DNA of 64,000 nt from assembly GCF_034314045.1 (NCBI RefSeq), contig NZ_JAVIWL010000001.1, forward strand, positions 744,001-808,000. Direction: 5' to 3'. This document shows, piece by piece, positions 14,896-62,102 of this stretch (position 1 is the first letter of the stretch; every line of letters starts with the position of its first letter). Source of the DNA: Glaciimonas sp. CA11.2. GTDB taxonomy: Bacteria; Pseudomonadota; Gammaproteobacteria; Burkholderiales; Burkholderiaceae_D. The translations under genes and the position numbers were made by a program. The notes below the pieces were generated by a model. The model was not told the origin of the DNA. It worked only from the letters and a program-made list of their open reading frames with translations, and ran no database searches.

Positions 14896-14993
14896 GACTT
14901 ACCCCAAAATGCCCCAGCGGCGTTGTGCTCTCCTTGCCGTAGTAGCGCACTGTCTCCGTCGGCACGCCTTCCTGGGACAATTTTGGGTAAGTC
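14896..14993. repeat. Dispersed inverted-repeat element, copy A
   Basis: A 98-base element with terminal arms GACTTACCCCAAAAT and ATTTTGGGTAAGTC, which pair except for one extra C. Inside, in reverse orientation, are the family core pieces GCCCCAGCGGCGTTGTGC and CGTCGGCACGCCT. It lies 17 bases downstream of the amidohydrolase stop codon and upstream of BVMO 1 on the opposite side. The central hairpin is weaker in this copy than in the others. No open frame of interest is present. Confidence 0.85.
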
Positions 14994-15010
14994 CTAATCA
15001 TCAAAGCAAC

Positions 15011-16042
15011 TTAACGTCCCAACCGATAAAAGTTGCTCGCCGTATCGTGGAACAATGACGCTTTTTCCGTTGCTGATGCACCGGAGGCTATGCGCTTGAA
15101 TGCGTTCCATAGAACGGGATAGCTACACATACCTTTATCGACCGGAAAATTACTTTCAAACATGCAGCGATCTGCACCGAAGTGTTCGATACAAGCTTCG
15201 ATGTACGGGCGCCATGCAGTCGACAACTCGCCGGACGATGGTGGAATCGGTTCTTTATGAAATTCAAATCCGATGACCGCCATTGCCAAACCACCCAACT
15301 TGACGTGCACATTAGGACACGTCGCTAACGTTTTCATTGAAGCTAACCAGTGCGTAAATACGGTGTCACGTTTACCAACATAGGGACCCACACCAAGTGG
15401 ACCGCCGGTATGATTCAACACAATCGGGGTCTCGGGAAAAGCCCGCGCCAATGCCGTCAGTTCATCAATTTGCGTGTGATAAAGCCACGCATCAAACGTC
15501 ATATTAAACGCCTGCAAACGACCAAAACCGGTACGGAATGTCGGGTCAGAAAATAGGTGCTCTTGTGGACGCCCCAACAAACTGGCGGAAAATGCCTCAT
15601 GCCGTGCCGAGATATGGCGGATACCGCGGAAGCGGCCATGGCCTGCGTCGATGTGTGCCGCTAACAAGGCATCAACTTTGTCTCCCAAAAGCAAATTGCC
15701 AGCACCGACAATACCGGCGCAAATGCGGGTTTTTTCATCGCGGCGTTCGCACTCTTCAGCAACTGCCGTGACGAATGTCGTTTCTCCAACCGAACGCAAT
15801 TCTTCCGGTCCATCGGTACGATATGCATATCCACACTGAGAAAAAACAGTCGCTACAACGTTGTGACCGGAATTGGTATCAGCTAAAATTTCGTCAAGGA
15901 AATAGCCGCCTTCGCGCTCCCACAAATGATGGTGCGGATCGATGATCGGCAAATCCGGTTCGATGATTTCTTCCTGCAAACGGAGCAACCAGGCTGGATC
16001 AAGTGAAATGTGCTGTAAAACCGGAATGGACGTATTTGACAT
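15011..16042 (-). CDS. Amidohydrolase_2 family metal-dependent hydrolase, possible lactonase
   Basis: TIM-barrel hydrolase of about 343 residues in the amidohydrolase_2 group (COG3618), which includes fuconolactonase-like and pyrone-dicarboxylate lactonase-like enzymes. The metal-binding HxH motif is in LPIIDPHHHLW near the N-terminus; later VLNHTGGPLG and the terminal CMFESNFPVDKG give the further His and the catalytic Asp region. The ATG at 16040-16042 is chosen because the longer frame to 16114 adds residues not expected for the family. It stands between the TauD-like dioxygenase and BVMO 1 on the same strand. Opening the lactone made by a BVMO is an attractive role, inferred from family and position. 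Confidence 0.85.
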   Translation of the reverse strand: MSNTSIPVLQHISLDPAWLLRLQEEIIEPDLPIIDPHHHLWEREGGYFLDEILADTNSGHNVVATVFSQCGYAYRTDGPEELRSVGETTFVTAVAEECERRDEKTRICAGIVGAGNLLLGDKVDALLAAHIDAGHGRFRGIRHISARHEAFSASLLGRPQEHLFSDPTFRTGFGRLQAFNMTFDAWLYHTQIDELTALARAFPETPIVLNHTGGPLGVGPYVGKRDTVFTHWLASMKTLATCPNVHVKLGGLAMAVIGFEFHKEPIPPSSGELSTAWRPYIEACIEHFGADRCMFESNFPVDKGMCSYPVLWNAFKRIASGASATEKASLFHDTASNFYRLGR

Positions 16043-16149
16043 GGGAAAGCTTTCAGTTAGCGTTAAAAACAAGCACGATTTGCCATCTTCAGTCCAGAGC
16101 CGCACATAAACCAATACGCTTGAATCTTGACTGAAATATCTACCGCGAT

Positions 16150-17046
16150 TTAGGCCGCAACCACCGCTGCTTCGCCCACGATTGTGGTGCGATGCATGAC
16201 GCGACGTTCGTCAGCGTCGAACTTGGTCACCTGATGCATGGTGCAACGGTTGTCCCACAACACGACATCGTCGGTTTCCCAACGATGCGAGTAAACAAAT
16301 TGCGGCTGGCCCGAGAACGCGGTCAGTTCGGCAATCAGTTTGCGTCCTTCTTCAGAAGACATGCCTTCGACTTCCTCGTTATAGATCGGGCTGATGTAAA
16401 GCGATTTACGGCCAGTTCCTGGGTGAATCCGCACCAGTGGTTGCCATACCGGTGGCATCGCAGCGCGCTCTTCGTCTGTCAGTGGACGCAAGGAATTCTG
16501 TTTTTGCAAAAATTCAAAGTCATGCAAAGCGCGACGGCCTTCAATGGCCTTCTTCAGTGATTCTGGCAGCGCTTCATAGACCGCATACATATTGGTGAAT
16601 TGGGTTTCGCCTCCACTACGGCTGACTTCGATCCCGTGCAGCAGAGATCCGGTGCAGGGTATCGCACGGTAGCTACTGTCGGTGTGCCAAAATTGCGCCA
16701 ATGACACCTGACGCGCTGTTGGGTGCGACAGTGGCATCAATACATTATTTTCATCAACGTTGGAGACACGGAAAATTTCGCGTACGCTTTTTGAGCGAAT
16801 GATGTCCTGGTGAAATATTTCGGGCTCACCGAAATTGCGCGTAAATTCAACATGTTCCTGATCAGTAATATGCTGATTCGGAAAAACTAACACCAGATGA
16901 TCCATCCAGATATCGTTCAACAGACGCATGGTTTCCTGATCCAGCTTCTGACGCATATCGACACCAAGTACTTCGGCGCCAAGCGTGGTGCCCAACGGGC
17001 GTACCGTAAGTGACGCGTTGGACGTATTTTTGACGTAAGACGACAT
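16150..17046 (-). CDS. TauD/TfdA family Fe(II)/2-oxoglutarate dioxygenase
   Basis: Non-haem iron dioxygenase of 298 residues. The iron triad appears as H121 and D123 in FWHTDSSY and H271 in CTMHQV, with R282 or R286 placed to bind 2-oxoglutarate. These spacings fit TauD, TfdA and related enzymes that hydroxylate a substrate and couple it to 2-oxoglutarate decarboxylation. GGAG precedes the ATG. It follows the cupin gene by 118 bases on the same strand and leads to the amidohydrolase. Substrates in this family range from sulfonates to phenoxyacetates and carboxylates, so the exact reaction is open. Confidence 0.9.
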   Translation of the reverse strand: MSSYVKNTSNASLTVRPLGTTLGAEVLGVDMRQKLDQETMRLLNDIWMDHLVLVFPNQHITDQEHVEFTRNFGEPEIFHQDIIRSKSVREIFRVSNVDENNVLMPLSHPTARQVSLAQFWHTDSSYRAIPCTGSLLHGIEVSRSGGETQFTNMYAVYEALPESLKKAIEGRRALHDFEFLQKQNSLRPLTDEERAAMPPVWQPLVRIHPGTGRKSLYISPIYNEEVEGMSSEEGRKLIAELTAFSGQPQFVYSHRWETDDVVLWDNRCTMHQVTKFDADERRVMHRTTIVGEAAVVAA

Positions 17047-17163
17047 AAAGATATCTCCAGATCCACAAAAGGAATGTTTAGTTTTAGGTGTAATTTAGGT
17101 GTAGCAAAAGGCGGCACAAACGTGCCGCCATGGTGGACTGCTGCCGCGCTCAAAGGAGGCCAA

Positions 17164-18111
17164 TCAGTCGGCGAAAGAAAAGCCCATCGCCCGGGTGTAA
17201 TAGTAGATGCCGCCATCCTGGATAATCAGGAACATGGCGCGCTTGTCACCCTCGTTGTGATGCGAGTGAACTGACACCGCTGGCGTCACGGTCGTGGCCC
17301 ATTGCGACCAATCCTTACGCTTGCCATCGACAATCGAATAGCAGCCTTCGCCCTGAATAATCAGTGCCATCGCCATCGCATTGTGTCGATGCGGACGCTG
17401 TGCATCGCCAGGCTGAAGAGAGTTCATCGCCACGGTCAGCGTTGGCAACACATTGCGAATTGCCAGTTGCGACGTAGACGATAAAATCAACGCAGAGCCG
17501 GGAATGTCTTTGCCACGCCCTACCGCGTATAACAGATCGATTTGTTTAGTAATTTCATCGGCGGGATAGTGAACGACGCAGGTTGGAGATTTGCCTTGCT
17601 CAGGCGCGCGCAGATGCTCGAACGCGAGTTGCGGTTCGTTCGTGACGATCCACAATACGGCATCGGTGCCGTGCGCGTGATAACGATGCACGCCGCCACC
17701 GGGAAGCACGAACACATCGCCAGTGCTCCAGTCGATTTGCTCGGATTCGCAATCGGTCGTGCCGGTGCCCGTGATGACATAGACGATGATTCCGCTGGCA
17801 ATAAATTCGGTGCTTAAGGTCTCACCTGCTTTGATCTTGGCGTAACGCGCCAACGACAAAGGTGTCGTTGCCGGAACCGCGCTTTCCAGCTGCGCCGAGA
17901 CGTCACAAGCGATCAGGCCAGTTGGCGTGTCGGGATGCAAAGCCTTTGCTGGCTCATCAATAAAGCTTTGATCAGGTACCGCGGGCAGTTTGACGTCAAA
18001 GGCGTTACCAGTATTGAAATACCGGGCCGATGCTTGTGCCTTAGTTTTCGGTGCAGCCGCTAGCTGAACGGGTAAATCCGCAATTGTCGTAGGACGCGTT
18101 GCTTCAGTCAT
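17164..18111 (-). CDS. Double-cupin, gentisate 1,2-dioxygenase-like protein
   Basis: Bicupin of 315 residues. The first cupin spans about residues 95-165 with GDVFVLPGGGVHRYHAHG; the second has RPHRHNAMAMALIIQGEG and ends with SVHSHHNEGDKRAMFLIIQDG, the arrangement seen in gentisate and salicylate ring-cleavage dioxygenases. Metal-binding His residues are visible in both halves. AGGAG precedes the ATG. It is the first gene of the minus-strand block that continues with the TauD-like dioxygenase and the amidohydrolase. No accessory gentisate genes (maleylpyruvate isomerase or hydrolase) are nearby unless the GST-like protein acts as an isomerase, so gentisate itself is not assured. Confidence 0.8.
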   Translation of the reverse strand: MTEATRPTTIADLPVQLAAAPKTKAQASARYFNTGNAFDVKLPAVPDQSFIDEPAKALHPDTPTGLIACDVSAQLESAVPATTPLSLARYAKIKAGETLSTEFIASGIIVYVITGTGTTDCESEQIDWSTGDVFVLPGGGVHRYHAHGTDAVLWIVTNEPQLAFEHLRAPEQGKSPTCVVHYPADEITKQIDLLYAVGRGKDIPGSALILSSTSQLAIRNVLPTLTVAMNSLQPGDAQRPHRHNAMAMALIIQGEGCYSIVDGKRKDWSQWATTVTPAVSVHSHHNEGDKRAMFLIIQDGGIYYYTRAMGFSFAD

Positions 18112-18207
18112 GGTGATCTCCTAGTGTTCTGTTGCCGTTGGTCCTCCCTCGCGGGTAAGCGCCAAACGATCTTTATGTGTATTACGTTACGCCGCTCACC
18201 CCGCAGG

Positions 18208-18232
18208 GTCAAACGAGAAATTCTTGTCGATA
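18208..18232. promoter_or_regulatory. Candidate operator upstream of the cupin gene
   Basis: A 25-base stretch starting GTCAAACGAGAAATTC, about 97 bases before the cupin start. Its core ACGAGAA-A-TTCTTGT is an imperfect inverted repeat. Almost the same 25 bases (two differences) recur at 21317-21341, in the region upstream of the acyl-CoA ligase. Two copies in non-coding DNA around LysR and AraC genes suggest a shared regulatory site; the regulator is inferred only. Confidence 0.45.
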
Positions 18233-18322
18233 CCGATCACTGCAAACACCACTTAACAACATTGTTGCGTGGCTTTAGGACACCTTTCCACTGAGTCTAT
18301 GCACTACACCTATTCACTGCAC

Positions 18323-19216
18323 CTATTCAAGCACCGACGGCAATCGGCACACCTCAGTCACAATAGCTGCAAAATCCGCAATAGCCGGATCGAGACTATC
18401 AACACGGGTAGCCACGAAAAAGGTAATGGAAGGGATCGGTGGCTGCGTTTTCAACACACATAACGTCCCGTTCTCAACATCATCCTTGATCAACTCTTGC
18501 GGCATCATGCAGATGCATACGCCGCCGCGCGCGACATACAACATGGTCGACATATTATTGCAAAAACTGATCGAACCCGGCATCACACCGTCATCCGCGA
18601 ACCAGCTTTGCATCTGGGAAAATAAGCGCGCTTCCCGACTGAGCGAAATGATCGGCAATGCAGCGATCTCGCGCGGACTCACCACTTTCAAGTCGCCTAT
18701 CAGAGCGGGAGCACCGACCCATACCACCTTCATTGCACCAATTGGCATCGCATTGATCTCGGGCGCATGGATCGGCCCACCGACAATGGCAACATCGATT
18801 GCCCCACGCCCCAGTTTCTGCAACAAACTTGCGTTCAAATCGATATCGACCTCAACCGCCAGCCCGGGATAACGCAACTTCAATGCATTGATCATCGCCA
18901 CCAATGAACGTGCGGCGATCACTTCCCCAAGACCAATCTTAACCACGCCGCTGGTGATCTCCGGTTTGCCAGCAGCAAGCCGTAACTGAGACGCATCGAT
19001 CACCACTTTTTCGGCATGAACCAAAAGCTCACGCCCTTTTAGCGTTAGCTGAACATGCCGCCCGATACGATCAAACAAGACTACGTCCAACTCCATTTCG
19101 AGTTCTCGGATGCGTGAAGATACACTCGCCTGAGATGTGTACAGACGCTCGGCCGCGGCACTGAAAGTGCCGAGCCGGGAAATCCAGCAAAAGGTCTCAA
19201 GCTGCTGAATATTCAT
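18323..19216 (-). CDS. LysR-family transcriptional regulator
   Basis: LysR regulator of 297 residues. The N-terminal winged helix reads MNIQQLETFCWISRLGTFSA followed by AAERLYTSQASVSSRIRELE, the standard LysR DNA-binding helix, and the rest is the two-lobed effector domain. The ATG at 19214-19216 is preferred over a frame to 19297 because the LysR fold begins there and GGAGG lies upstream. It lies between the cupin gene, which it may control, and the acyl-CoA ligase. It resembles the second LysR at 48081 in its first helix (ETFCWISRLGTF versus ETLCWISRLGTF), so the two may be paralogues. Confidence 0.92.
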   Translation of the reverse strand: MNIQQLETFCWISRLGTFSAAAERLYTSQASVSSRIRELEMELDVVLFDRIGRHVQLTLKGRELLVHAEKVVIDASQLRLAAGKPEITSGVVKIGLGEVIAARSLVAMINALKLRYPGLAVEVDIDLNASLLQKLGRGAIDVAIVGGPIHAPEINAMPIGAMKVVWVGAPALIGDLKVVSPREIAALPIISLSREARLFSQMQSWFADDGVMPGSISFCNNMSTMLYVARGGVCICMMPQELIKDDVENGTLCVLKTQPPIPSITFFVATRVDSLDPAIADFAAIVTEVCRLPSVLE

Positions 19217-19304
19217 TGTGTTCTTCTTACCTCCACATTTAGTCTGTTGGTTCGTAAGTGGGCTAGTCGGTGGTTGCTTACATCTTTCCTTGGCCAATTA
19301 CCCC

Positions 19305-20942
19305 TTATTTACTGGGAGCAATCAACGCAGTCGCCATCGCCTTCAACTCCCTGCGCAAGACCTTGCCGGTCGCAGTGACTGGCAGCGCCTCACAAATTTC
19401 GATACGATTAGGTACTTTGTAACTGGAAGCAATTGCACGGCAATGGGCCTGCAATTCTTCACAACTCACTTCCATACCCGGCACTGGCACAATAAAAGCC
19501 ACAATCATTTCGCCGCGGTCGGCGTCCGGTGCACCGGTTACGCCAGCCAGCGCAACAGCGCCGTGCTGCTGCAATAACTCTTCAATTTCGGCGGGCGCGA
19601 CGTTGATGCCTGCACGCTTAATCATTTCGGTATTCCGACCAACAAATTGCAAACAACCATCGACGGTCAATTGCCCCAGATCACCCGTTGGAAAATAGCC
19701 ATCCGATGTAAAGGCCGAGTCGTTTAGTTCGATGCTAGTGCCGGTATATCCCGGCGTTACATTGCCGAATACCTCAATCATGCCGACTTTACCTTGCGGC
19801 ATTTGCTCGCCAGTATCCGCGTCAACAATACGTACCGTCACACCAGGCAGCGGCTGTCCCTGCATTTGTTTGCGTTGCTCCAGCGGCCAATGATGCCAGG
19901 TGACGCAACAGTTTCCGTAGCTTTCAGTTTGTCCGTAGACGTTACAGATTTCGTGCGCGCCGAGGATTTCGGCGGCATTGACGACATCCTGCGCGCTGCC
20001 GATCGTGAGGCCGGTGCGCAGACTACGCGTGCGGTCCTGATGAAATGACGGATGCGTGACAATACTTGTCGTCATTGCTGGCAAGGTATAGATCGCCGTA
20101 CAAGCATGCCGCTCGATCAATTCGATAGCGCCAGCCGGTTCAAAGCGCGTCTGCAATACCAGCGCGGCGCCGTGCGTGAAGGTGGCGCACATCGCATTTG
20201 CTGATCCATACGACCAAAACAACGGCAATGCCAGCAGCACTTTGTCGTAAGGAGAATACCCTTGCCGTTCACCGATGTTGAAGGCGTTTTCAAGCATGGC
20301 GCACTGCGTCAATCGCACTGCTTTCGGATAAGAAGTTGAGCCTGATGTGTAAAGAATCATCGCATCATCGCCGTTATGACCACCGGCACCTGGCGCCTGA
20401 GATTCATCGAGCGGCGGATGGCGGCTGACGAAAGCCTCATAATCGATCGCGCCAATCAGTGGCAGGCCACCGGAACCACTGCCGCCAATGGCAACAACGG
20501 CATCCATCTTTGGATAGCGCGCCGAACGCCATTGACCAGACACGACGATGCCCAACTCAGGTATCAATGCGATCAGGTCAGCGGCATAATCCTGTTCCCC
20601 AAACTGTTCCAGAGTGAACAATACTTTGACTTCTGAGTCTGCCAGTAAAAAATCGAGTTCCGCACGTTTCGACCAGGTACTGAAAGGCACGGCGACTGCA
20701 CCAATAGCCGCCGAAGCGATACACACTTCGATCCATTCCGGACGGTTATTGACCAAAATGCCGATACGATCACCGCGACCTACGCCAGCAGCACGCATTC
20801 CCGCGGCGACGCGGCGAATTCGTAGTTCCAGCTCGGGATAAGTAACACGCTGATCTCCTGCAATGATGGCAGGCCGATCAGTATACCGCTCAGCCATTTC
20901 ACACACAAGGTCAAATAAATTTCTACTGTAAGGTGCACGCAT
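19305..20942 (-). CDS. AMP-forming acyl-CoA ligase (class I adenylate-forming enzyme)
   Basis: ATP-dependent acid:CoA ligase of 545 residues. The phosphate-binding motif ILYTSGSTSYPKAV is near residue 200, the adenine-binding motif YGQTES follows, and the C-terminal hinge is in GRNTEMIKRAGINVAPAE; the late catalytic Lys lies in TATGKVLRRELK. The ATG at 20940-20942 is chosen because the longer frame would need TTG. Its closest relative in the window is the ligase at 36889, with which it shares many stretches (for example GITIGSAQ/GVTIGSAE regions and CNVYGQTESYGNC versus CNIYGATETCGNC). The acid substrate is unknown; hydroxy acids from lactone opening would fit. Confidence 0.92.
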   Translation of the reverse strand: MRAPYSRNLFDLVCEMAERYTDRPAIIAGDQRVTYPELELRIRRVAAGMRAAGVGRGDRIGILVNNRPEWIEVCIASAAIGAVAVPFSTWSKRAELDFLLADSEVKVLFTLEQFGEQDYAADLIALIPELGIVVSGQWRSARYPKMDAVVAIGGSGSGGLPLIGAIDYEAFVSRHPPLDESQAPGAGGHNGDDAMILYTSGSTSYPKAVRLTQCAMLENAFNIGERQGYSPYDKVLLALPLFWSYGSANAMCATFTHGAALVLQTRFEPAGAIELIERHACTAIYTLPAMTTSIVTHPSFHQDRTRSLRTGLTIGSAQDVVNAAEILGAHEICNVYGQTESYGNCCVTWHHWPLEQRKQMQGQPLPGVTVRIVDADTGEQMPQGKVGMIEVFGNVTPGYTGTSIELNDSAFTSDGYFPTGDLGQLTVDGCLQFVGRNTEMIKRAGINVAPAEIEELLQQHGAVALAGVTGAPDADRGEMIVAFIVPVPGMEVSCEELQAHCRAIASSYKVPNRIEICEALPVTATGKVLRRELKAMATALIAPSK

Positions 20943-21316
20943 AGTTCGCTCAAGTCTTTTCAATGGTTATAACAACTGCGAGTACCTATAAAGTATTTCG
21001 CAAGGGAATATAAAAAATGACTAAGCAAAATCATGCAACCAGCGTCAAGCGCCAGGCAGATTCCGAGCGGCAGATAATGCGGTGATGTCGTGCATTCACG
21101 CTGATAGTCGTTACGCCCGATTACGTAAAACCGGTCGTTACAGCTATCAATATCTTGTGTTAATTATTCGCGCAAACTTTCACATCGCTGCGTTGATCAA
21201 AAGGCTCTCGGAAGAGTGTTGATAAACGCTTTTTTCTGTCTCCGGTCGTATCAGCATATTGCTGTCGACTCTTTGTCATTTTTTTATACCCAACAGTAGA
21301 GCGCCCACGTATTGCA

Positions 21317-21341
21317 GTCAAACGAGAAAATCTTGTAGATA
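21317..21341. promoter_or_regulatory. Second copy of the 25-base candidate operator
   Basis: GTCAAACGAGAAAATC and the next nine bases match the site at 18208-18232 with two differences. It lies six bases before repeat copy B, in the 619-base gap between the AraC gene and the acyl-CoA ligase. It is about 375 bases from the ligase start, which is far for a simple operator, so it may instead mark a remnant of a duplicated promoter. Confidence 0.4.
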
Positions 21342-21346
21342 TTTAT

Positions 21347-21464
21347 TAGGATTTACGAAAAATCGCCCCAGCGGCGTTGTGCTCTCCTTGCCGCCAACGT
21401 GGCCCGGTACTAGCGTACTGCCTGCGTCGGCACGCCTTGCTGGGACGGTTTTTCGTAAATCCTA
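21347..21464. repeat. Dispersed inverted-repeat element, copy B
   Basis: A complete 118-base copy in reverse orientation. The arms TAGGATTTACGAAAAATCG and CGGTTTTTCGTAAATCCTA pair at 18 of 19 positions, although their sequence differs from the arms of the other copies. The interior holds GCCCCAGCGGCGTTGTGC, a central GTAC-loop-GTAC hairpin and GTCGGCACGCCTTGCTGGGAC. It sits in the ligase-AraC gap (20943-21561), of which it and copy C are the main recognisable content. Confidence 0.9.
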
Positions 21465-21489
21465 ATGATGCAACTGGTTTGCAACCCCT

Positions 21490-21558
21490 CCGCCGCAGAC
21501 AAGATGCTTGGGCGGCAAAGAAAGCACAACGCCGCTGGGGCGATTTTGCGTAAGTCCT
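21490..21558. repeat. Dispersed inverted-repeat element, copy C (half copy)
   Basis: Only the right half of the family is clear: CCGCAGACAAGATGC, then GGCGGCAAAGAAAGCACAAC and GCCGCTGGGGCGATTTTGCGT ending in AAGTCC. It is in forward orientation, 25 bases after copy B, and ends about three bases from the stop codon of the AraC gene. It may be a decayed copy or the second half of a B-C pair. Confidence 0.75.
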
Positions 21559-21561
21559 TTT

Positions 21562-22401
21562 CTAAGTAGCGTTGGGGGGCGGGATAGCCTGTCCATACAT
21601 GTTGATTTTGTGGCAGTTCTTAAATAACAGTGTTGGCGTCATGCCAAAAACCTGACGCACTGAATGGCTAAAATGGGTAGAGTCCGGATAGCCGGTATTG
21701 AGTGCCAGATAAACCAGATTAGTCGAATCCATCAAGCGATAAAGCAAACTACGTCCCCGTTTCCATGACCGAAAACTACGGAAAGGCACACCCACAGTCT
21801 CCCTGAACAAATGCAAAAACCGCGATACCGAAAGTCCTGCATCACGCGCACTATCGATTGCCGATGCCTGACCGCAAGGATTAAGTTTAATAGAGGCAAC
21901 TAACGATGCAATCCGTGATTCGAAAGTACGCGGACGCGTCAGCAGTTGTCCGAAAAAAAACATATCAAAGTCTTCAGTCTGCGGATCGATAATATCTCCC
22001 AGACTGTTAATTTTTGCATACGCCTCACGCATCTGCCGCACCACTGCGTCGTCGTTTCGTTGACCGGAAACTGCTTTCAAATAACTCGGCAGAAGACTCA
22101 CATCAACTGTTTCTGGTTCTATATGTATCACCGCGACCAGACGGTTATCACATTCAATTCGGTGCGGCGTATAGGCTTGCACAATCGCGAGGTCGGTGCT
22201 TAACCAATCACCTCCGTCGATACTAATCCGTATTGGCTCAGCCAGCGATACATACATAATAATGCTGCCCATCACGCGGGTAGTGCGCTGACCGATCAAT
22301 CCAGCATAAAACACCCTGTCAGAATTAATCCATATGTGACGTTGGCGCTGCGGACGTTTGCCTGCGTCTGTGTTAACTGGTAATGCATCATTTTGTTTCA
22401 T
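21562..22401 (-). CDS. AraC-family transcriptional regulator
   Basis: Regulator of 279 residues with a C-terminal AraC DNA-binding domain: the first helix-turn-helix includes SARDAGLSVSRFLHLFRETV and the second LALNTGYPDSTHFSHSVRQV, ending FGMTPTLLFK. The N-terminal 170 residues would hold a cupin-like sensing domain. The ATG at 22399-22401 follows GGTGG by eight bases and is preferred over a frame to 22452. It stands alone between the ligase and the tctBA genes. Its stop codon is next to repeat copy C. Target genes cannot be read from sequence. Confidence 0.88.
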   Translation of the reverse strand: MKQNDALPVNTDAGKRPQRQRHIWINSDRVFYAGLIGQRTTRVMGSIIMYVSLAEPIRISIDGGDWLSTDLAIVQAYTPHRIECDNRLVAVIHIEPETVDVSLLPSYLKAVSGQRNDDAVVRQMREAYAKINSLGDIIDPQTEDFDMFFFGQLLTRPRTFESRIASLVASIKLNPCGQASAIDSARDAGLSVSRFLHLFRETVGVPFRSFRSWKRGRSLLYRLMDSTNLVYLALNTGYPDSTHFSHSVRQVFGMTPTLLFKNCHKINMYGQAIPPPNAT

Positions 22402-24230: not shown

Positions 24231-24233
24231 GAC

Positions 24234-34404: not shown

Positions 34405-34507
34405 TAGGACTTACGTAAAATTGTCCCAGCAAGGCATACCGACGCAGACATTACGAATGTAACGCAAGGAGGTATAACGCCGCTGGGGCGGTTTTGCTTA
34501 AGTACTA
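34405..34507. repeat. Dispersed inverted-repeat element, copy D
   Basis: A 103-base copy in forward orientation, inserted between thiolase 2 and DUF35 (b), starting about 12 bases after the thiolase 2 stop. The arms TAGGACTTACGTAAAAT and GTTTTGCTTAAGTACTA pair at 13 of 17 positions. The central hairpin is TTAC-GAAT-GTAA, different from the GTAC and GCAC stems of other copies yet still paired. It interrupts an otherwise tightly packed operon. Confidence 0.85.
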
Positions 34508-51009: not shown

Positions 51010-51455
51010 ATGGTCCATACGCAAAATGGTTTCTGCAAGGGGCTTTGGCAACGCAGACAGTGCCCAGAAGTAGGAAAAGCAAAAGCCGTCCTGGGTTTTG
51101 TTAAATGTCAGTTTGTCCGTTCAGTCCTGACGCAAACGCGTCCCGGCAAGGCGTGCCGACGCAGACAGCACGCTAGTGCGGCAAGGAAGGCACAACGCAT
51201 CTTGGGGGAGGTTAAGACGGTCGCCAAGTCAGCCAACGGTCCTGACGCAAACGCGTCCCAGCAAGGCGTGCCGACGCAGACAGCACGCTAGTGCGGCAAG
51301 GAAGGCACAACGCATCTTGGGGGAGGTTAAGACGGTCGCCAAGTCAGCCAACGGTCCTGACGCAAACGCGTCCCAGCAAGGCGTGCCGACGCAGACAGCA
51401 CGCTAGTGCGGCAAGAAAAGCACAACGCCGCTGGGGCGCGTTTACGTCAGGACCG
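51010..51455. repeat. Dispersed repeat element amplified in tandem, copy E
   Basis: Three units with a period of 115 bases start at 51124, 51239 and 51354, each beginning GTCCTGACGCAAACGCGTCC. Units 1 and 2 are almost identical (one base differs early: CCCGG versus CCCAG); unit 3 ends with the family right arm (GCCGCTGGGGCGCG, then TTTACGTCAGGACC). A diverged unit starts near 51010. The central hairpin GCAC-GCTA-GTGC is present in each. The right end overlaps the last codons and stop of iclR. The flanking part of this gap (50782-51009) shows nothing else of note. Confidence 0.92.
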
Positions 51456-52200
51456 GCCGTATGTTGCCTAGGCTGCGCTCAATCTGCTCTGCGCAAGCAC
51501 GGGCGGCATCCAATAGTTTATGTTCGTGCGACTTGGTTGCCCGCCGACCAATGACGGAAACGTGAATCGCCCCCGCCAAATTACCATTGGCATGTCGGAT
51601 GGGAATGGCATAGCCGACCACGCCTTCGACCGCTTCCTCTTCGCTTTTCGCGTAACCCTGCTTGCGAATGCGCTGATATTCCGCTTCCAATGCACGCGCA
51701 TCAGTGATGGTATTAGTAGTCAGTTTTTTTAGCGGCCCAGATAAAGCCTTCGCAGCAAGGCGCGTATCGTTGGCGGCGAATAGCTTGCCGGTCGCGGTGC
51801 AGTGCAGCGACAGCCGCTCGCCCAAACGAATATCGAGCGAAATACGCTGCGTACCCATGCATCGGTCAACATAAAACACACGCTGCCCCATATTCATTCC
51901 GAGATAGACGTCGTCGCCAATGATTTTTGCCAGATCTTGCAAATGGCGGCGCGCCAATGGCCGCACATCGAGCGAGGCCACGGTCGATAAAGCGATGCCG
52001 ACCACACGTGGACCGATTGAGTAGCGCAAGTCTTCGGTCATGGTCAGCACTTCTGCCGCCACCATGGTTTGCAACATATTGTGGACACTGCTGACCGGCA
52101 GGCCTAACGCTTCTTTGATTTCGGTCAGGCGCAGACCTTCTTTAAAGCGCACTAACAAGTCAAGCACATCGAAGGTGCGTAGATATCGGTCGGGACTCAT
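51442..52200 (-). CDS. IclR-family transcriptional regulator
   Basis: Regulator of 252 residues with an N-terminal winged helix (TFDVLDLLVRFKEGLRLTEI, then ALGLPVSSVHNMLQTM) and an IclR effector domain (GYAIPIRHANGNLAGAIHVS). GAGG precedes the ATG. The last four codons and the stop lie inside repeat copy E, so the C-terminus may have been changed by the element. A 16-base palindrome of the TTTCGA-N4-TCGAAA type lies 81 bases upstream of the start, and related sites lie before the orphan receptor/SDR pair and importer system 4; autoregulation and control of those genes is the natural reading. Confidence 0.92.
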   Translation of the reverse strand: MSPDRYLRTFDVLDLLVRFKEGLRLTEIKEALGLPVSSVHNMLQTMVAAEVLTMTEDLRYSIGPRVVGIALSTVASLDVRPLARRHLQDLAKIIGDDVYLGMNMGQRVFYVDRCMGTQRISLDIRLGERLSLHCTATGKLFAANDTRLAAKALSGPLKKLTTNTITDARALEAEYQRIRKQGYAKSEEEAVEGVVGYAIPIRHANGNLAGAIHVSVIGRRATKSHEHKLLDAARACAEQIERSLGNIRPVLT

Positions 52201-55129: not shown

Positions 55130-56785
55130 TTATGCCGCGGTCAGGATAAACCCGCGATAGGCATTATCCGCAATCTCATCACACTCCTTGCGGTACACCC
55201 CAATTCTTGCCACATACGGCATGAATACGCGTGGTTTCCCCGGAATATTGGCACCCAAAAACCATGAATTAGCCAGTGGGAAAAGTGTCTTGTTAGCCGC
55301 TTTATTGACATGCTCTACCCAGTCTTTTTCCGCCGGCACTCCCGCCTCAATAGTGGTGATTTTCTCTCGATCCAGATAGGTTATACAATCACTAATCCAC
55401 TCAACATGCTGCTCAATACCGACCACCATATTGACTAGCGCAGACGGACTTCCCGCGCCTGTGATGATGAACATATTGGGGAAACCGGCCGTCATTAAGC
55501 CCAGATAAGTGCATGGCCCATCGGCCCATTTATCGACCAGCGTCAAGCCGTTTCTGCCACGAATATCCATGTTCAGTAGCGCCCCGGTCAATGCGTCGTA
55601 ACCGGTCGCACACACCAGCGCATCTAACGCATATTCTGTGTCACCACAACGCACCCCTTCAGCACTTACTTCGGTAATCGGCGTCTTTTTTAAATCGACC
55701 AGTTTAACGTTGGTGCGATTGTATGTTTCGTAATAACCGGTATCTACACAAATACGTTTGGTGCCAAGCGGATGATCGTGTGGACAGAGCATTTCTGCCA
55801 CGACAGGATCTTCTACTGTATTTCTAATTCGGGCGCGAACGAAGTCTGAAATCGTGTCATTGGCACGCTTATCGACCATCACATCATTAAAGGAATGAAC
55901 GAAGTTGACGCCGCCTTTATTCCAGCGACGTTCGTATTCTTGTGCGCGCTCTTGTTCCGTCGCCTGCATCGCGCCTTTATCTGAAAACTCATACAAGGTC
56001 CCCACTTCGCGCGCCCGGGTGCGGTGTTCGCGATAGACGCTTTTCCATTGTTGCTGGTCTTCGGGCTTGAGCGCTTCGTTCCATCCTGGAATGGAAAAGT
56101 TGGCGGTACGTTGAAAGACCACTAAGTTTTCTACTTGACGGGCGAGTGCAGGAATCGTTTGAATGCCGGAAGAACCGGTCCCGATCACGCCCACCCTTTT
56201 GCCACTGAAATCGACACCTTCATGCGGCCATGCGCCGGTATGATAAATCTTGCCGGTGAACTTGGCCAGACCCGGAATATCCGGCAATCTTGTGGCAGAG
56301 AGCGAACCACTTGCCATCACGCAAAAACGTCCGGATGCCTGTGCGCCAGTATCAGTTTCCAATTGCCAGCGATTTTGCGTTTCATCGAAAATTGCAGCCG
56401 TAATGCGCGTATTAAAATCAATATCCCGACGCAGATCGAAGCGATCCGCTACGTGCATGATATAGCGTAATATTTCTGGCTGTGCCGCGTACTTTTCGGT
56501 CCAGACCCATTCCTGCTCAAGTTCAGTAGAAAACGAATACGAGTACTGTAAGCTTTCTACGTCACAACGAGCGCCGGGGTAGCGATTCCAATACCAGACA
56601 CCACCGACATCATTTGCGGCCTCGAAGACACGCGCTGTCAAACCCATTGCACGAACCTGATGCAGCATGTGCAAGCCGGCAAATCCGGCTCCGATGATTA
56701 AGACGTCGTACGCTGCATCCGATGCAGAATTCAATGATTTGACTTGGGCGTCGCCATGCTGCAACGGTGGCTTGGAATGTGGCAT
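55130..56785 (-). CDS. Type I Baeyer-Villiger monooxygenase (BVMO 2)
   Basis: Flavin monooxygenase of 551 residues, colinear with BVMO 1. GAGFAG at 32-37, the fingerprint FxGxxxHTxxWP at 176-187 (FTGKIYHTGAWP) and GTGSSG at 202-207 are complete. DVGGVWYWNRYPGARCD is the same as in BVMO 1. AGAG lies before the ATG. It follows livG of system 4 by 54 bases on the same strand, so it is probably the last gene of the system 4 operon, linking import to ketone oxidation. Differences from BVMO 1 in the middle third may reflect a different ketone. Confidence 0.93.
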   Translation of the reverse strand: MPHSKPPLQHGDAQVKSLNSASDAAYDVLIIGAGFAGLHMLHQVRAMGLTARVFEAANDVGGVWYWNRYPGARCDVESLQYSYSFSTELEQEWVWTEKYAAQPEILRYIMHVADRFDLRRDIDFNTRITAAIFDETQNRWQLETDTGAQASGRFCVMASGSLSATRLPDIPGLAKFTGKIYHTGAWPHEGVDFSGKRVGVIGTGSSGIQTIPALARQVENLVVFQRTANFSIPGWNEALKPEDQQQWKSVYREHRTRAREVGTLYEFSDKGAMQATEQERAQEYERRWNKGGVNFVHSFNDVMVDKRANDTISDFVRARIRNTVEDPVVAEMLCPHDHPLGTKRICVDTGYYETYNRTNVKLVDLKKTPITEVSAEGVRCGDTEYALDALVCATGYDALTGALLNMDIRGRNGLTLVDKWADGPCTYLGLMTAGFPNMFIITGAGSPSALVNMVVGIEQHVEWISDCITYLDREKITTIEAGVPAEKDWVEHVNKAANKTLFPLANSWFLGANIPGKPRVFMPYVARIGVYRKECDEIADNAYRGFILTAA

Positions 56786-56839
56786 CGTATCGGTCTCTTT
56801 TTTATAGTTATCGCAGCGAAAAGCTGGTGTGTAAAAAAT

Positions 56840-57667
56840 TTAAACGTTGTCCGTGGCAGCGCCATGTTCGGTGCCAAGATACGCCTTGATCACCGCTGGA
56901 TTTGCCTGCACCTCGCGCGGCGTTCCCTCAGCGATTTTGCGGCCAAAATCAAGAACGACGATCTTGTCAGAAATATCCATGATCACCGGGATGTCATGTT
57001 CCACAATCAAAAAGCTGACGCCGTATTGCTCACGCACGCGCAAGATCAATTCGGTCATTGCGCTTTTTTCCGCGCTACTCATACCAGCCATCGGTTCATC
57101 GAGCAACACCAAGCGCGCTTTTTGCATTAACGCACGGGCGAATTCGACTTGCTTTTGTCGTCCATAAGGTAACTCTCCCGGCAACACGTCAGCGATATCG
57201 GGCATACCTAAAAATTCCAAAACCTCGGTCGCTGCCGTGAATGCGGCCCGTTGCTCCGCACGCGCCCGCCAGCTTGTGACAGCACCTTGCAGCAGGCCGG
57301 ATGCGCCTTGCCGATATGCGCCAACCAACAAGTTATCCATCACCGTCAGGCCACCGAACAATGCCAAATTCTGGAACGTCCGCGCCACGCCATGCCGCGA
57401 GACCTGATGCGCTGCTTTCCCTGTAATGTCGGCACCGTCGAAAACCACCTGTCCCGATGTTGGCCGATACATGCCAGTGACGCAGTTAAATAAGGTGGTT
57501 TTTCCGGCGCCATTAGGACCGATCAACGAGGTAATCTGCCCTGTTTGTGCGGTAAATGACACGTCATCCAGCGCACTTAAACCCTGAAAGCGCATTTGCA
57601 ACGATGCAATATTGAGCAAAACGTTACTCTTCATAGTAGTCGTTGATGGCATCTTGCTAGTGTTCAT
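56840..57667 (-). CDS. livG: HAAT ABC transporter ATPase LivG (system 4)
   Basis: ATP-binding subunit of about 275 residues. Walker A GPNGAGKTTLF, signature LPYGRQKQVEFARALM and Walker B LVLLDEPMAGMSSAE are intact. The longest frame begins with TTG at 57685; the ATG at 57665-57667 is preferred, though later ATGs (57652, 57634) are possible. In this system the order is livK, livH, livM, livF, livG, the reverse of the other three for the two ATPases. Confidence 0.92.
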   Translation of the reverse strand: MNTSKMPSTTTMKSNVLLNIASLQMRFQGLSALDDVSFTAQTGQITSLIGPNGAGKTTLFNCVTGMYRPTSGQVVFDGADITGKAAHQVSRHGVARTFQNLALFGGLTVMDNLLVGAYRQGASGLLQGAVTSWRARAEQRAAFTAATEVLEFLGMPDIADVLPGELPYGRQKQVEFARALMQKARLVLLDEPMAGMSSAEKSAMTELILRVREQYGVSFLIVEHDIPVIMDISDKIVVLDFGRKIAEGTPREVQANPAVIKAYLGTEHGAATDNV

Positions 57668-57681
57668 CTCACTCGGGGCGC

Positions 57682-58434
57682 TCAAACTGTTGCCTCTTCG
57701 CGCTGACTGCCAAGGTAAGATTGCTTGACCAATGCGCTGGCGGCTACTTCACTCGCAGGACCGGACAATACAATCCGGCCACGATCCAGGACATAAGCGG
57801 TGCTGGCGAATTGCAGTGCCAATCGCGCGTTTTGCTCGACCACCAACATGGAGGTTCCCAAGGTGTCGCCGACGACTTTCAGTTGCTCATAAATCGTTTC
57901 CACGATCAAGGGCGCGAGGCCTAGCGACAGCTCATCGACCAGCAATAGTCGGGGTCCTGCTACCAACGCCCGTCCTAACGCCAGCATTTGCTGTTCACCG
58001 CCGGAAAGCCAGCCAGCGGCTTGTCGACGTCGCTCAAGCAAGCGTGGAAAAAGTGTGTATACCGCTTCCATCCGTTTGCTGACAGCGGCCCGCGGCAATA
58101 TAGCAGCGCCGACCTGTAAGTTTTCTTCGACGCTTAATTGCTTGAATACCAGTCTGCCTTCCGGCACCTGCGCCATACCAAGTCGCACCAATTGGTGCGA
58201 AGGCAAACCAAGAATAGAATTCCCTGCGAAATCGATCCTGCCAGCTGTGACGCCGCCGCCATGCAAACCCAGCAAACCGGTAATCGCGCGGATTAAGGTG
58301 GTTTTGCCAGCACCATTAGCGCCTAGCAGGGCGACGATGCTGCCCGCTGGCAAGGCCAGACTGACCGAATCCAGCGCCAAACCTTTACGTGCATAGGCAA
58401 CCGACAGATTGTCTACATTGAGCATTATTTCCAT
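57682..58434 (-). CDS. livF: HAAT ABC transporter ATPase LivF (system 4)
   Basis: ATP-binding subunit of about 250 residues. Walker A GANGAGKTTLI, signature LSGGEQQMLALGRALV and Walker B LLLVDELSLGLAP are visible; the usual Pro after the Walker B Glu is Leu. Three starts are possible (58449, 58434, 58425); the ATG at 58432-58434 has GGAG six bases upstream, while the last would form TAATG with the livM stop. It precedes livG. Confidence 0.92.
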   Translation of the reverse strand: MEIMLNVDNLSVAYARKGLALDSVSLALPAGSIVALLGANGAGKTTLIRAITGLLGLHGGGVTAGRIDFAGNSILGLPSHQLVRLGMAQVPEGRLVFKQLSVEENLQVGAAILPRAAVSKRMEAVYTLFPRLLERRRQAAGWLSGGEQQMLALGRALVAGPRLLLVDELSLGLAPLIVETIYEQLKVVGDTLGTSMLVVEQNARLALQFASTAYVLDRGRIVLSGPASEVAASALVKQSYLGSQREEATV

Positions 58435-59543
58435 ACGTTGCTCCGCCATGAGGAAAACCGCTTACGCAATTGGACGCCAAGGCCAGCCATGCCGCCCGGC
58501 GCAAAAATCAACAATATAACCACCAGCAGTCCAAAAGTCAGATTCACCAGTTGCGGCTTACTATTTAGCAAAAACTGACCAACCACACCAGGCGATCCGC
58601 CCGCATGGGTCGCAAAACCGCTGATCACGGCTGGCAACAATAACCAGATAACCGCCCCACATACTGAACCGGCCAGCGATCCCATCCCGCCAATAATGAT
58701 CATGGCGATGAACTGGACCGCGAAGTTGATGCTGAAAAAATCCGCAGCAACATTGGTCATGAAATACGCGTATAAAGCACCCGCCATTGCAGCGATGGCG
58801 GAGCTAAAAGCGAAGGCTTTCAAGCGCAAAATGCGTACGTCGATACCAGCCGCAGTGGCAGCCAGCTCATGATCACGCATTGCCATCAATGCGCGCCCTT
58901 CACGTGAGCGCATGGTGTTGCGCAAACACATATAAACCACGGCCACCAATGGCAGCAAAAAGAAATACCAGCGCAATCCAGAGTCGAGTGCAAACGGTCC
59001 GACCTTAGCTTCGTTGAAAGGAATACCCACTACGTCAAAGAATTTGTACTGGTATTCGGCAAGCAGATATACGACGATAAAATGCAACGCTAACGTTGAC
59101 AGCACAAAATACAATCCGCGCACGCGTAACGACGGCAAACCCGCGAAGACTCCGGCTAAGGCGCCAGCTACTCCCGCGGCGATCAGCACCAATGGAAAAG
59201 GCCAGCCCCATTGCGTTCCCGTCACGGCGGCAGCAATCGCACCAACCGCATAAAACGCAGCGTGACCGATAGAAATCAAACCGGCACAACCCGTTAAATA
59301 ATTGAGCGATAGTGCACCTAAAATGGCGATCAGCGTCAGGTTGACTTGCGTTAAACCAATATTCAGCAGTTGCAGGTTAGATAGCCGAAAACCGAATATC
59401 GCACGTTGATCCAGTACCACCGGTAAGTAGCACAGAATAGCGATAGCAGCGATGATGCCGATCCAGCGCCAGGGAAAAACAGCGGCTGGTGTTGGGATCA
59501 CCAATGTTTGGGCGGATGCCTGTAATTGAGGTTGAGTACTCAT
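58425..59543 (-). CDS. livM: HAAT ABC transporter permease LivM (system 4)
   Basis: Inner-membrane permease of about 372 residues. The LivM core GCAGLISIGHAAFYAVGAI and the coupling loop MAMRDHELAATAAGID are clear. The ATG at 59541-59543 is chosen as it lies just after the livH stop; a frame to 59567 would overlap it. A hydrophilic N-terminal stretch of about 35 residues precedes the first membrane segment. It pairs with LivH of system 4. Confidence 0.93.
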   Translation of the reverse strand: MSTQPQLQASAQTLVIPTPAAVFPWRWIGIIAAIAILCYLPVVLDQRAIFGFRLSNLQLLNIGLTQVNLTLIAILGALSLNYLTGCAGLISIGHAAFYAVGAIAAAVTGTQWGWPFPLVLIAAGVAGALAGVFAGLPSLRVRGLYFVLSTLALHFIVVYLLAEYQYKFFDVVGIPFNEAKVGPFALDSGLRWYFFLLPLVAVVYMCLRNTMRSREGRALMAMRDHELAATAAGIDVRILRLKAFAFSSAIAAMAGALYAYFMTNVAADFFSINFAVQFIAMIIIGGMGSLAGSVCGAVIWLLLPAVISGFATHAGGSPGVVGQFLLNSKPQLVNLTFGLLVVILLIFAPGGMAGLGVQLRKRFSSWRSNVWK

Positions 59544-59547
59544 CGCA

Positions 59548-60414
59548 TCACACCCGACCGAGTTCACGTTGACCGAACAAACCCCACGGTCTCACCATCA
59601 GAATCATCAATAGCGGTGCATAAATCAATATGTCACGCGCTTTAGGTGAGATATATGCGGACCCGAATTGTTCAATTAAGCCAACCAGCAAACCACCCAC
59701 AATGGCGCCCGGAATACTTTGCAAGCCACCGATCACCACCGCTGGTAAGGCCAGCAAACCAATGTTTTCCAGCTCGACAGTCGCCACTTGCAACTGTCCT
59801 AAAAAGACGCCCCCGATAGCCGCCAGGACGCATCCGATAGCCCACGCCAGGGCATTGATGCGATTGACGTTGATGCCAGACACAAGCGCTGCTTCATGAC
59901 TATCAGCAGTGGCCCGCATCAGTAAACCGGCCGACGTGAACTTGAAGAAAGCACCCACGCCTGCCATACAGGCCCAACTCACCAACGCAGCGGTTAAATG
60001 CAATTCTGATATCCGTACACCGCCGACTAAAAAACTGCCGGTTGGCAAGGGCGTCATCAATGACCTTGCCTGTGGTCCGTAAATCAATTCGATCATGGCA
60101 CGCAGCACAATCGCCAATGCAATAGTGATCATAATCACCGGTAACAATGGACGACCGGCCAAAGGACGAATCAATAACGCATGGATTGCAGCGCCCAATA
60201 ATGCCGCGGAAAGGACGATGAAAACCACCGCCATCGGGAAAGGCAAACCGAGCTGCGTACTGCCAGTCACGGCCAAATAAGCACCGACAACAACCAACAT
60301 ACCCTGGGCAAAATTAAACACCCCGGTCGCCTTAAATATCACCGCGAAGCCAAGCGCCACCAAGCCGTAAATGCTACCCAGCGCTAAGCCGCTGAAAAGG
60401 ATTTGGGTCATCAT
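59548..60414 (-). CDS. livH: HAAT ABC transporter permease LivH (system 4)
   Basis: Inner-membrane permease of about 288 residues. GSIYGLVALGFAVIFKATGV and FNFAQGMLVVVGAY are the LivH landmarks, and the coupling loop RATADSHEAALVSGIN is present. The two adjacent ATGs at 60409-60414 come right after the livK stop and are preferred to a frame to 60453. The ribosome-binding site is weak, so translation may depend on livK. Confidence 0.93.
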   Translation of the reverse strand: MMTQILFSGLALGSIYGLVALGFAVIFKATGVFNFAQGMLVVVGAYLAVTGSTQLGLPFPMAVVFIVLSAALLGAAIHALLIRPLAGRPLLPVIMITIALAIVLRAMIELIYGPQARSLMTPLPTGSFLVGGVRISELHLTAALVSWACMAGVGAFFKFTSAGLLMRATADSHEAALVSGINVNRINALAWAIGCVLAAIGGVFLGQLQVATVELENIGLLALPAVVIGGLQSIPGAIVGGLLVGLIEQFGSAYISPKARDILIYAPLLMILMVRPWGLFGQRELGRV

Positions 60415-60415
60415 A

Positions 60416-61645
60416 TTATTTGGCGACCTGCTGATAGTCACCGTACTTGCCATACGCCTTGAAGCGCTTGGTGTCGTAATCGTAGTTATAAGGTCTCAGT
60501 TGCACTAACCCAAGATGATTGTCGGGTGTGTATTTCAGTTGCGACGATACGCCTTTAGTATCTACTTCAAAGCCTTTCGCCATTGCTGCAACCATCGCAG
60601 CACGGGTCGGCGCAGCGCCAGCCCGGGCGATCGATTCGGCTGCCAGTTGGCCAACCACCCATCCGGCGACATAATTACCATCGTTCTTCAACGCGCCATT
60701 GCCATATTTATCGGCTAACGCCGACATCTCTTTAATAGCAGGCGTTTCTTCGATTCCGCCCGGCGTGAAGCAGCTGACAAAATAATAGTTGCTGCCAGTC
60801 TTAGGGCCCAAAGCCTCATACACACCCGGCGTGCCGAGATAAGTAATGGCGAAGGTTGGAATATTCAAACCGTATTGCTGCATCGCCCGCATTACCAAAA
60901 TGGCGGTAGTCGGTACGCCATGAATGGCGACGAAATCCGGTTTCATTTTAATGATTTCGAGCACTTGCGCAGTCGCATCAGCAGCGGCTACTTTTATTTG
61001 AATCGACTTCGACGTGCCGCCGCGCTGCGCCACCGCTTCATCAATATATCCTGCGTATTCTTTACCGGACGCGACATCAAGGTTGATGGTGGCGACCGTT
61101 GGCGCTTTCAGTTTCAGCTTATCGATAAAAAATCCGACACCAACTTGTGCCATTTCACGGAAACCGCAAAAGGAACCATAAAATAGTGGCGATGCAGGCT
61201 CAACCGCTGGTTTGGTCGTCACATAAGTACCGACAATAGGCACCTTGCCACGTCGGATTGACGGTGCCAAGGCAACCTGCGCGCTCGAGTTGCCGACGCC
61301 AGAAATGCCTAATACGGGAGTTTGATTGACTAGCTTGTCGTAAGCGACGCGATCCAGCGATGCGTCGTAGCGGTCATCTTCAGCCAGAATGTTGATTTTG
61401 CGGCCATGAATACCGCCGCTTTCATTCACCTTGCGCATATACGCCTGAAAACCCTTTACCCAAGGCAACTGGGCTGCCGAAGCCGGTCCACTCAGATCCA
61501 TCATGACGCCCCAATCAATATGATCGGCATAGACGCCATCGCTTTCTTGCTCGAAAGCATTAGCGCTAAAAGCGAAGCTGGCTGCGATTAAGCCAAGCGC
61601 AAATTTACCAACAGAGGCGCGTGCGCCACTTTTCAACATAGTCAT
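60416..61645 (-). CDS. livK: Periplasmic substrate-binding protein LivK-like (system 4)
   Basis: Type I periplasmic-binding protein of 409 residues. GGGAG precedes the ATG and a signal peptide ends AFSANA. Apart from the leader it is colinear with the orphan receptor at 52454, with many shared stretches such as GVSS, DNHLG, VSCFTPG and FEVDTKG. It opens the operon livK, livH, livM, livF, livG, BVMO 2. A perfect 18-base palindrome lies 70 bases before its start. Two near-duplicate receptors with one membrane complex suggest two related ligands. Confidence 0.93.
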   Translation of the reverse strand: MTMLKSGARASVGKFALGLIAASFAFSANAFEQESDGVYADHIDWGVMMDLSGPASAAQLPWVKGFQAYMRKVNESGGIHGRKINILAEDDRYDASLDRVAYDKLVNQTPVLGISGVGNSSAQVALAPSIRRGKVPIVGTYVTTKPAVEPASPLFYGSFCGFREMAQVGVGFFIDKLKLKAPTVATINLDVASGKEYAGYIDEAVAQRGGTSKSIQIKVAAADATAQVLEIIKMKPDFVAIHGVPTTAILVMRAMQQYGLNIPTFAITYLGTPGVYEALGPKTGSNYYFVSCFTPGGIEETPAIKEMSALADKYGNGALKNDGNYVAGWVVGQLAAESIARAGAAPTRAAMVAAMAKGFEVDTKGVSSQLKYTPDNHLGLVQLRPYNYDYDTKRFKAYGKYGDYQQVAK

Positions 61646-61714
61646 TTCATCTCCCGTGGTCGCTCACCTGTCAACGCTAAGCGATCGCAGGAAAGTCGTT
61701 TTAATATTTAGTGT

Positions 61715-61732
61715 TTTTCGAATATTCGAAAA
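61715..61732. promoter_or_regulatory. Candidate IclR operator before the system 4 operon
   Basis: TTTTCGAATATTCGAAAA is a perfect 18-base palindrome, the best match to TTTCGA-N4-TCGAAA. A partial second site (TGCGAAAATATTATC) follows at about 61744. They lie 70-115 bases before the livK ATG. Confidence 0.65.
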
Positions 61733-61985
61733 CCAATCTTTGTTTGCGAAAATATTATCACGAATATGCATCCCAGCAAGGTTGATTTAACGATTTATCG
61801 CCGAAACATTTCAATGCTTAATGCATCCAGGAAATAGTGATAAGACATAGGCAACTTTGCCCCGCGAAGTGGCTATGAACCTTCACCACAAAGACATTAA
61901 CTTGGGGAGTAAAGGTAGAAAAGTACGGGAAGAAGAAGAAGAAGAATACCCCGTTGGCGGAGCACTTGGATGCCAAATCGGTTTT

Positions 61986-62102
61986 GTAGGAGTTACGCAA
62001 ACCCGTCCCAGCAACGGGCTTGCCAATCCTGCCGACGCAGACAGTACGCCAGTACGGCAAGGAAAGCACAAAGCCGCTGGGGCGGGTTGACGTAGCTCCT
62101 AC
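61986..62102. repeat. Dispersed inverted-repeat element, copy F
   Basis: A complete 117-base copy in forward orientation. Arms GTAGGAGTTACGCAAACCCG and CGGGTTGACGTAGCTCCTAC pair at about 16 of 20 positions, and the central hairpin is GTAC-GCCA-GTAC. It ends three bases before the stop codon of SDR 3 (62106). A short GAA run (61929-61946) precedes it. Together they fill most of the 460-base gap before the system 4 operon. Confidence 0.9.

Follow-up and report, generated by a model that had tools for sequence, protein, structure and literature searches.

The window analysed here is a 64-kb stretch of the genome of Glaciimonas sp. CA11.2 (G000:C1:744001-808000, G000 being the host genome), in which a preliminary description had listed dispersed copies of one element with paired arms. 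With covariance model R2, seven elements were located in the window, all having a best-strand E of 1e-10 or lower, and this search, which the description had proposed, recovered every full copy that it listed; as the R2 alignment contains copies B, C and D3, the window scores are not independent. The half copy was found by DNA match (21511-21558, 92% to copy B; 21490-21554, 82% to unit D3), and the listed sites are indeed copies of one family. The repeat was also visible in a plain DNA search of the host genome, which gave 45 matches to copy B, some of them overlapping. The copies form one hairpin family of ~104-118 bp and are presented in Table 1. No full copy lies at 51010-51121, and the other borders shift by a few bases from the earlier listing. 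Site D (51122-51455) consists of three tandem 115-bp units, each made of an element and a spacer, with units 1 and 2 being 99% alike and having one damaged arm each. Copy E lies 4 bp past the stop codon of an SDR-type gene (62106-62930, minus strand).

Table 1. Element copies and terminal repeats located in the 64-kb window.
Feature	Position	Strand	Support
Copy A, full element; right end TTTGGGTAAGTCCTA	14893..14996	+	R2 69 bits, E 2.6e-16
Copy B, full element carrying the optional internal hairpin; TAGGATTTACGAAAA at both ends (paired changes)	21347..21464	+	R2 90 bits
Half copy adjoining copy B (5' half of element, leftward)	21490..21558	-	DNA match only
Copy C, full element	34405..34507	-	R2 91 bits
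Copy C terminal repeat TAGGACTTACGTAAA, IS701-type	34405..34419	+	14/15 to IS701 terminal repeat
Copy C opposite terminal repeat	34493..34507	-	13/15
Site D tandem unit 1, one diverged arm	51122..51220	-	R2 49 bits; 115-bp direct repeat
Site D tandem unit 2, one diverged arm	51237..51335	-	R2 51 bits
Site D unit 3 (D3), full element, arms CGGTCCTGACG../..CGTCAGGACCG	51352..51455	-	R2 104 bits, E 6.6e-26
Copy E, full element	61987..62101	-	R2 60 bits

The fold was assessed in an alignment (A2) of 47 copies from 11 genomes, with the structure written by hand from folds of these sequences. Of the 39 host loci, 11 are represented in A2, as are 36 of 39 others (L063, L071 and L078 were left out); 11 of the 39 host loci had been dropped for alignment A1 (L007, L013, L016, L020, L022 and L027, together with L033, L034, L035, L037 and L039). 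In A2, 84.0% of cells pair compared with 67.4% after shuffling, and both-sided changes are observed in 36 of 43 pairs compared with 27.1. Paired change was present in 352 cells versus 123.0 in the shuffled alignments and at most 90 when the partner was slid by 1-3 columns, a control which flatters the structure somewhat because the structure was chosen from the same sequences. Outside the genus, 31 of the 43 pairs had a double change among 26 rows. The central stem changes while pairing, as had been described. Mean identity is 66% in the arm columns and 70% in the 8-bp stem, and reaches 96-100% in most bulge and internal-loop columns (the GTT bulge, T44, C48, T77, C80, T81 and C83). The less conserved loop columns are 45 (55%), 82 (53%) and those of the apical loop (37-81%). 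Columns 22 and 104 are unpaired in 28/47 copies, and column pair 46-79 is G-U in 36/47. Counts of G-U versus A-C were 63 versus 14 in the core and 49 versus 103 in the arms; since core and arms disagree, the counts do not identify the folded strand, and the selected molecule may be RNA or single-stranded DNA.

Changes in the outer 16 bp of the arms were tallied in 40 host copies, one of 41 having been dropped for too many mismatches. The same letter change on both sides was observed at 37 positions where ~5 were expected, so that the arms do differ between copies and pair nonetheless, as claimed. One-sided changes numbered 102, and both sides had changed differently at 6 positions. As one-sided changes exceed paired ones, many copies are also decaying and not every copy is constrained. 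With respect to palindromic insertion targets, complementarity of the flanks was no higher than in shuffled flanks. These data support a fold kept by paired changes across copies, genomes and one fixed locus. The preliminary description had read such changes as selection for a folded RNA or single-stranded DNA. The keeping of the fold is borne out by the 36/43 pairs and by the fixed pstB-phoU site, while in the outermost 16 bp paired changes do not have to reflect selection on a folded RNA, as one transposase must read both ends.

The fixed site was found in family f33, where five of six fetched loci (L087, L088, L089, L096 and L097), from five genomes of three genera (G082, G353, G113, G318 and G117), carry the element at one place. 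It lies directly 3' of a gene whose protein ends ..ITGRYG, and is followed by phoU. NCBIfam gave PstB as the top family for L087 and L097 (partial proteins, below the family cut-off) and PhoU for L087, the sole locus tested for it; the pstB call was judged from the C-terminus for L088 and L089 and from DNA alone for L096. Among the five sequences, 14 of 36 predicted pairs show a double change, and the arms diverge and still pair. If this is one inherited site, pairing has been kept there without transposition.

The outer 16 bp of the host arms equal the ends of insertion sequences (IS) of the IS701 family (NF049921) in other genomes. A 37-mer arm query gave an 18-base match at a transposase locus of Paraburkholderia aromaticivorans plasmid pBN3 (E 5), which alone is no evidence; this locus proved to be an IS with TAGGACTTACGCAAAA at both ends and a transposase of NF049921, IS701 family, at E 1.5e-123. 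Exact TAGGACTTACGCAAA was present in three of 12 NF049921 loci, at both ends in Paraburkholderia and at one end each in G055 (L127) and G028 (L128). This 15-mer was not found in exact form in the other nine loci, for the most part fragments or weak matches. In Moraxella, Nostoc, Gloeocapsopsis and Planktothrix, related IS have the ends (T/C)AGGACTTACGCA, and a single such end was found in a Nodularia copy. When the 64-kb window was scanned with the IS701 15-mer (up to 3 mismatches), 7/7 matches fell inside the elements. No IS with G006-type ends was found in plasmids.

The flanks of 41 host copies (four partial copies, L168, L184, L185 and L188, were dropped) match as a 5-bp direct repeat, with 2.68 of 5 positions agreeing versus 1.61 in shuffled flanks (z 7.0) and 7/41 perfect, 5 bp scoring highest when lengths 2-12 were compared at six offsets (-1 to 4). 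At copy C the flanks are ACTCT/ACACT, a target duplication with 4/5 matching. The same best length was obtained with 20 copies of G003 (z 4.6; 4/20 perfect), and the G003 copies with quite different arms had no perfect 5-bp duplication. Copies of this kind (L224, L230, L233 and L236), whose arms do not resemble the IS701 repeat (e.g. TAAGTGTTCTCAAAA), make up a second class. Six of nine IS copies had a perfect 5-bp duplication with flanks read from the (T/C)AGGAC ends, two as given by the script and four as read after the script had set the border outward. In G009, where 130 combinations were compared, no duplication stood out clearly (best z 2.8). Comparison with sister species G001 and G004 at sites A-D revealed no element in 8/8 stretches; site C gave a clean insertion alignment, divergence at the other sites precluded an exact border, and the G001 stretch for site B lacked the left neighbour. 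The elements thus have terminal inverted repeats, a target-site duplication, empty sites in relatives and ends shared with an autonomous element in other genomes, as miniature inverted-repeat transposable elements (MITEs) do, and no autonomous partner was found in the same genome when G000-G004 were searched for NF049921.

The preliminary description did not recognise the family. Its core is that of the Correia elements of Neisseria and its outer arms are IS701-family terminal repeats, so that it corresponds in part to repeats already described, an outcome which the description had named as a refutation. A core 58-mer was found at 40 or more places in each of two N. gonorrhoeae records among the PLSDB plasmids (~2.17 Mb; NZ_CP119140.1 and NZ_CP119142.1); these "plasmid" records resemble chromosomes. 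Model R2, built without Neisseria, aligned a gonococcal copy over its full length at 61.2 bits (E 3.7e-15), with identities mostly in the characteristic core. Each end of this copy is one base off a Correia repeat variant printed in the part of PMC5039591 available, and the host arms, which are TAGGACTTACGCAAAA-type, match none of the four variants given there; the 26-bp Correia inverted repeat is absent from the host ends. Filled and empty sites of 107 and 105 bp in the accessible text of PMC2229807 imply a 2-bp duplication for Correia elements, in place of which 5 bp was the best length in two genomes here. The same text describes a long Correia form with a 50-bp insert. In a longer copy beside the L104 match, the insert by eye breaks the core before CCGTAC, in the internal loop that holds the optional small hairpin in Glaciimonas copies. 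At L020 (G000:C1:2831796-2831964) this optional hairpin, CCAGCGTGGCCCGG, is present in three tandem repeats within one element. According to the part of PMC2649163 (2009) available, the mover of Correia elements was not yet established and the repeat was then considered to be restricted to Neisseria. No report of the core outside Neisseria was found in the open-licence literature, a weak basis for a claim of novelty.

Beyond Neisseria the family is widely distributed. In the host genome, 54 distinct places were detected at E<=0.001 with model R1, 150 of 1,407 first-look candidates having been scored. The family is carried by 24/60 genomes searched, host included; the host and four genus mates had 25-58 matches each, and the other 19 positive genomes include G009 (51) and G059 (26). 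Of 299 Pseudomonadota genomes that were drawn, 31 including the host matched at E<=1e-4; as up to 13 candidates were scored per genome, copy counts from this draw are lower bounds. One of these, G164, has at least 11 places, and both places inspected bear the ends of the gonococcal copy or a near variant. The core 58-mer was present at 1-5 places in Massilia, Eleftheria and Cupriavidus records and had no match in phage records. In L099, L101, L102 and L103, which are from other families or classes, parts of the core are kept by eye (GTTG/GTTA after the first stem, CCTTG, and CTTG in most), and the apical stem is wholly different. The Rfam search that had been proposed gave no family over the gathering threshold in the window, and the only families to emerge from relaxed searches with site D and 12 loci were miRNA ones that scored far under their thresholds.

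Placement relative to genes was measured using gene positions from simple open reading frame (ORF) and codon-use scripts, not annotation. L188 was left out, and copies inside a called gene or without a called gene on both sides were dropped (5/44 host, 6/20 G003, 1/15 G009). In the host, the oriented 5' edge was nearer to coding sequence than the 3' edge in 33/39 copies (p 1.4e-5). Counting up to 15 bp, 14 stop codons and 5 start codons adjoin the 5' edge, compared with 2 boundaries at the 3' edge. The 5' edge was also nearer in 13/14 copies of G009 (p 0.0018) and in 10/14 of G003, where this was not significant (p 0.18). Host copies near start codons tend to be antisense, with the 5' edge toward the gene. 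A long-ORF stop codon was located at -10 to +15 of the element end in 11/15 G009, 3/4 G059 and 8/20 G003 copies, compared with 130 of 2,000 random flank positions. In G009 (L198-L211) the last base of the stop codon falls among the first 3 bases of the mapped element in 10/15 copies and at 12 in one, and in G059 (L212-L215) it lies within 2 bases in 4/4, shorter ORFs being admitted as for G009. These stop-adjacent elements lie in sense and in near-constant register.

The ten stop-adjacent genes scanned (nine of G009, one of G059) belong to mostly unrelated families, with TerD occurring twice. As LamB, alanine racemase and TerD match to the last profile positions, these are natural gene ends. 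Since a reading frame is invisible to a transposase, either selection keeps such copies or a short target motif is contained in stop codons. An AT gradient is a possible cause of the placement bias: at 80-150 bases the 3' side is the AT-richer one in the host (29 versus 9) and G009 (10 versus 5), while G003 shows no such excess (8 versus 9).

Taken together, we consider it fairly probable (roughly 70%) that an IS701-type transposase has moved these elements in trans and that they are built on a Correia-type core. The inner ~60 bp is a Correia-type hairpin core, comprising GGC/GCC, a GTT bulge facing a TT bulge, the covarying stem of 8 bp, the conserved CTTGCC / TGTCTGC internal loop and a GTAC hairpin. 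In Glaciimonas the outer 16 bp on each side are those that an IS701-family transposase (NF049921, ISPlag1-like) has as its terminal repeats, and we infer that this transposase moved the elements in trans and left 5-bp target duplications. In other genomes the same core lies between different, equally complementary arms, in Neisseria as the Correia repeats. A copy that is transcribed, often from the gene ending at its 5' edge, would place a long mRNA hairpin at or just past the stop codon. RNase III probably acts on such a hairpin, which may also block 3' decay. Binding or cleavage of the Glaciimonas transcripts by RNase III is probable by analogy with Neisseria, where it is published for the element transcripts in the part of PMC2649163 available.

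Several observations weigh against this interpretation. The host has no intact NF049921 transposase, its one 19.9-bit match being probably to another family, and among the genus mates G003 has only a broken NF049921 remnant and G001, G002 and G004 have none. A Correia-type core was found in 0/11 IS loci, so that the link consists of the ends and the duplication length only. The duplication is imperfect or absent in 34/41 host and 16/20 G003 copies, and only 13/40 host copies start with TA at both ends. In the core tree, 6/48 inner branches are well supported, and there are too few columns to tell end exchange from slow change. With no core in the IS and no intact NF049921 in the genus, the elements look like orphaned MITEs combining two origins.

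The first alternative to be weighed is that of ordinary bidirectional intrinsic terminators which have been copied about. AAA/TTT lies inside the arms in 43-44/47 copies, beside a GC-rich hairpin, and many copies are located at gene 3' ends. The scan of site D (51100-51500 only) gave one terminator-like site where 0.5 would be expected, the four G059 copies have a short T run or none, and terminators have no need for a conserved core; we therefore regard this as an unlikely account. Paired changes could also arise by copying from arm to arm (palindrome template switching) with no selection on the fold. Correction between arms is known for quasi-palindromes, and in 5/41 copies the outer 16 bp are identical (16/16) between arms. 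The bulges and mismatches which such copying would erase are among the most conserved positions (the GTT bulge, the C48/T77 mismatch), and it is doubtful indeed that this process explains the pattern.

Horizontal acquisition of Correia elements proper from Neisseria would fit the same core, the similar length and the optional insert at the same internal loop. It is very improbable given arms that fit none of the four Correia variants in the available part of PMC5039591, a 5-bp duplication versus the 2 bp implied in that of PMC2229807, and the occurrence of the family, with other arms, across many Pseudomonadota. Mobilisation of a REP/REPIN-type family by a RAYT (Y1 transposase) has almost nothing to commend it: the host genome has one Y1_Tnp-like gene, but Y1_Tnp occurs in 46/60 genomes with or without elements, G039 and G055 have elements and no Y1_Tnp match, and the elements leave 5-bp duplications. 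Linkage or co-occurrence with Y1/RAYT was accordingly rejected, Y1_Tnp being common among the searched genomes regardless of elements. The RAYT-like host protein (L043:1432-2139) contains LMGNQIQLL, which we take to replace the HUH motif.

Returning to a Correia-type core moved through IS701-type ends, the ends differ among genomes while the core stays, which points to a core that changes its ends, though the ends may instead have changed slowly. This suggests that one hairpin core swaps ends between lineages with its shape kept, and that the core is more widely distributed than the ends. More tentatively, the core may be a module that has spread through Pseudomonadota and survives by changing ends on different transposases and by settling as a sense hairpin at stop codons, including the old pstB-phoU site. 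If so, the conserved bulges would be recognised by a single widespread host protein, for which RNase III and an RNA chaperone are possible candidates. The stop-codon register, like the pstB-phoU site, suggests that the core has some use to the host. The family is real, folded and mobile, and the new points are the link between the Correia core and IS701 ends and the stop-codon register. A relative with identifiable ends and duplications provides a testable mover for Correia elements.

Among known systems, REP/REPIN sequences are likewise palindromic, intergenic and dispersed; the elements here are longer, leave 5-bp duplications, and no RAYT link was found. As with MITEs such as RUP and ERIC, the elements are small with a stable RNA fold, and RUP also has IS-like terminal repeats, its mobilisation by IS630-Spn1 being proposed in the part of PMC2229807 available. 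In contrast to RUP and ERIC, one core is common to several bacterial families here, with differing ends. The IS701-family IS (NF049921; ISPlag1-like) share the identical terminal repeat TAGGACTTACGCAAA and a 5-bp duplication (6/9 copies), and differ in being ~1.1-1.3 kb long, transposase-coding and devoid of a Correia-type core. The closest likeness is to CREE/NEMIS of Neisseria, which have the same core and hairpin, a short form of 104-108 bp (PMC2649163, available part), many mostly intergenic copies and, by eye, an optional insert at the same internal loop. CREE/NEMIS differ in their ends (TATAGTGGATTAAC.. versus TAGGACTTACGCAAAA here) and in an implied 2-bp versus a 5-bp duplication, while the present family occurs in other genera, with arms that vary among genomes.

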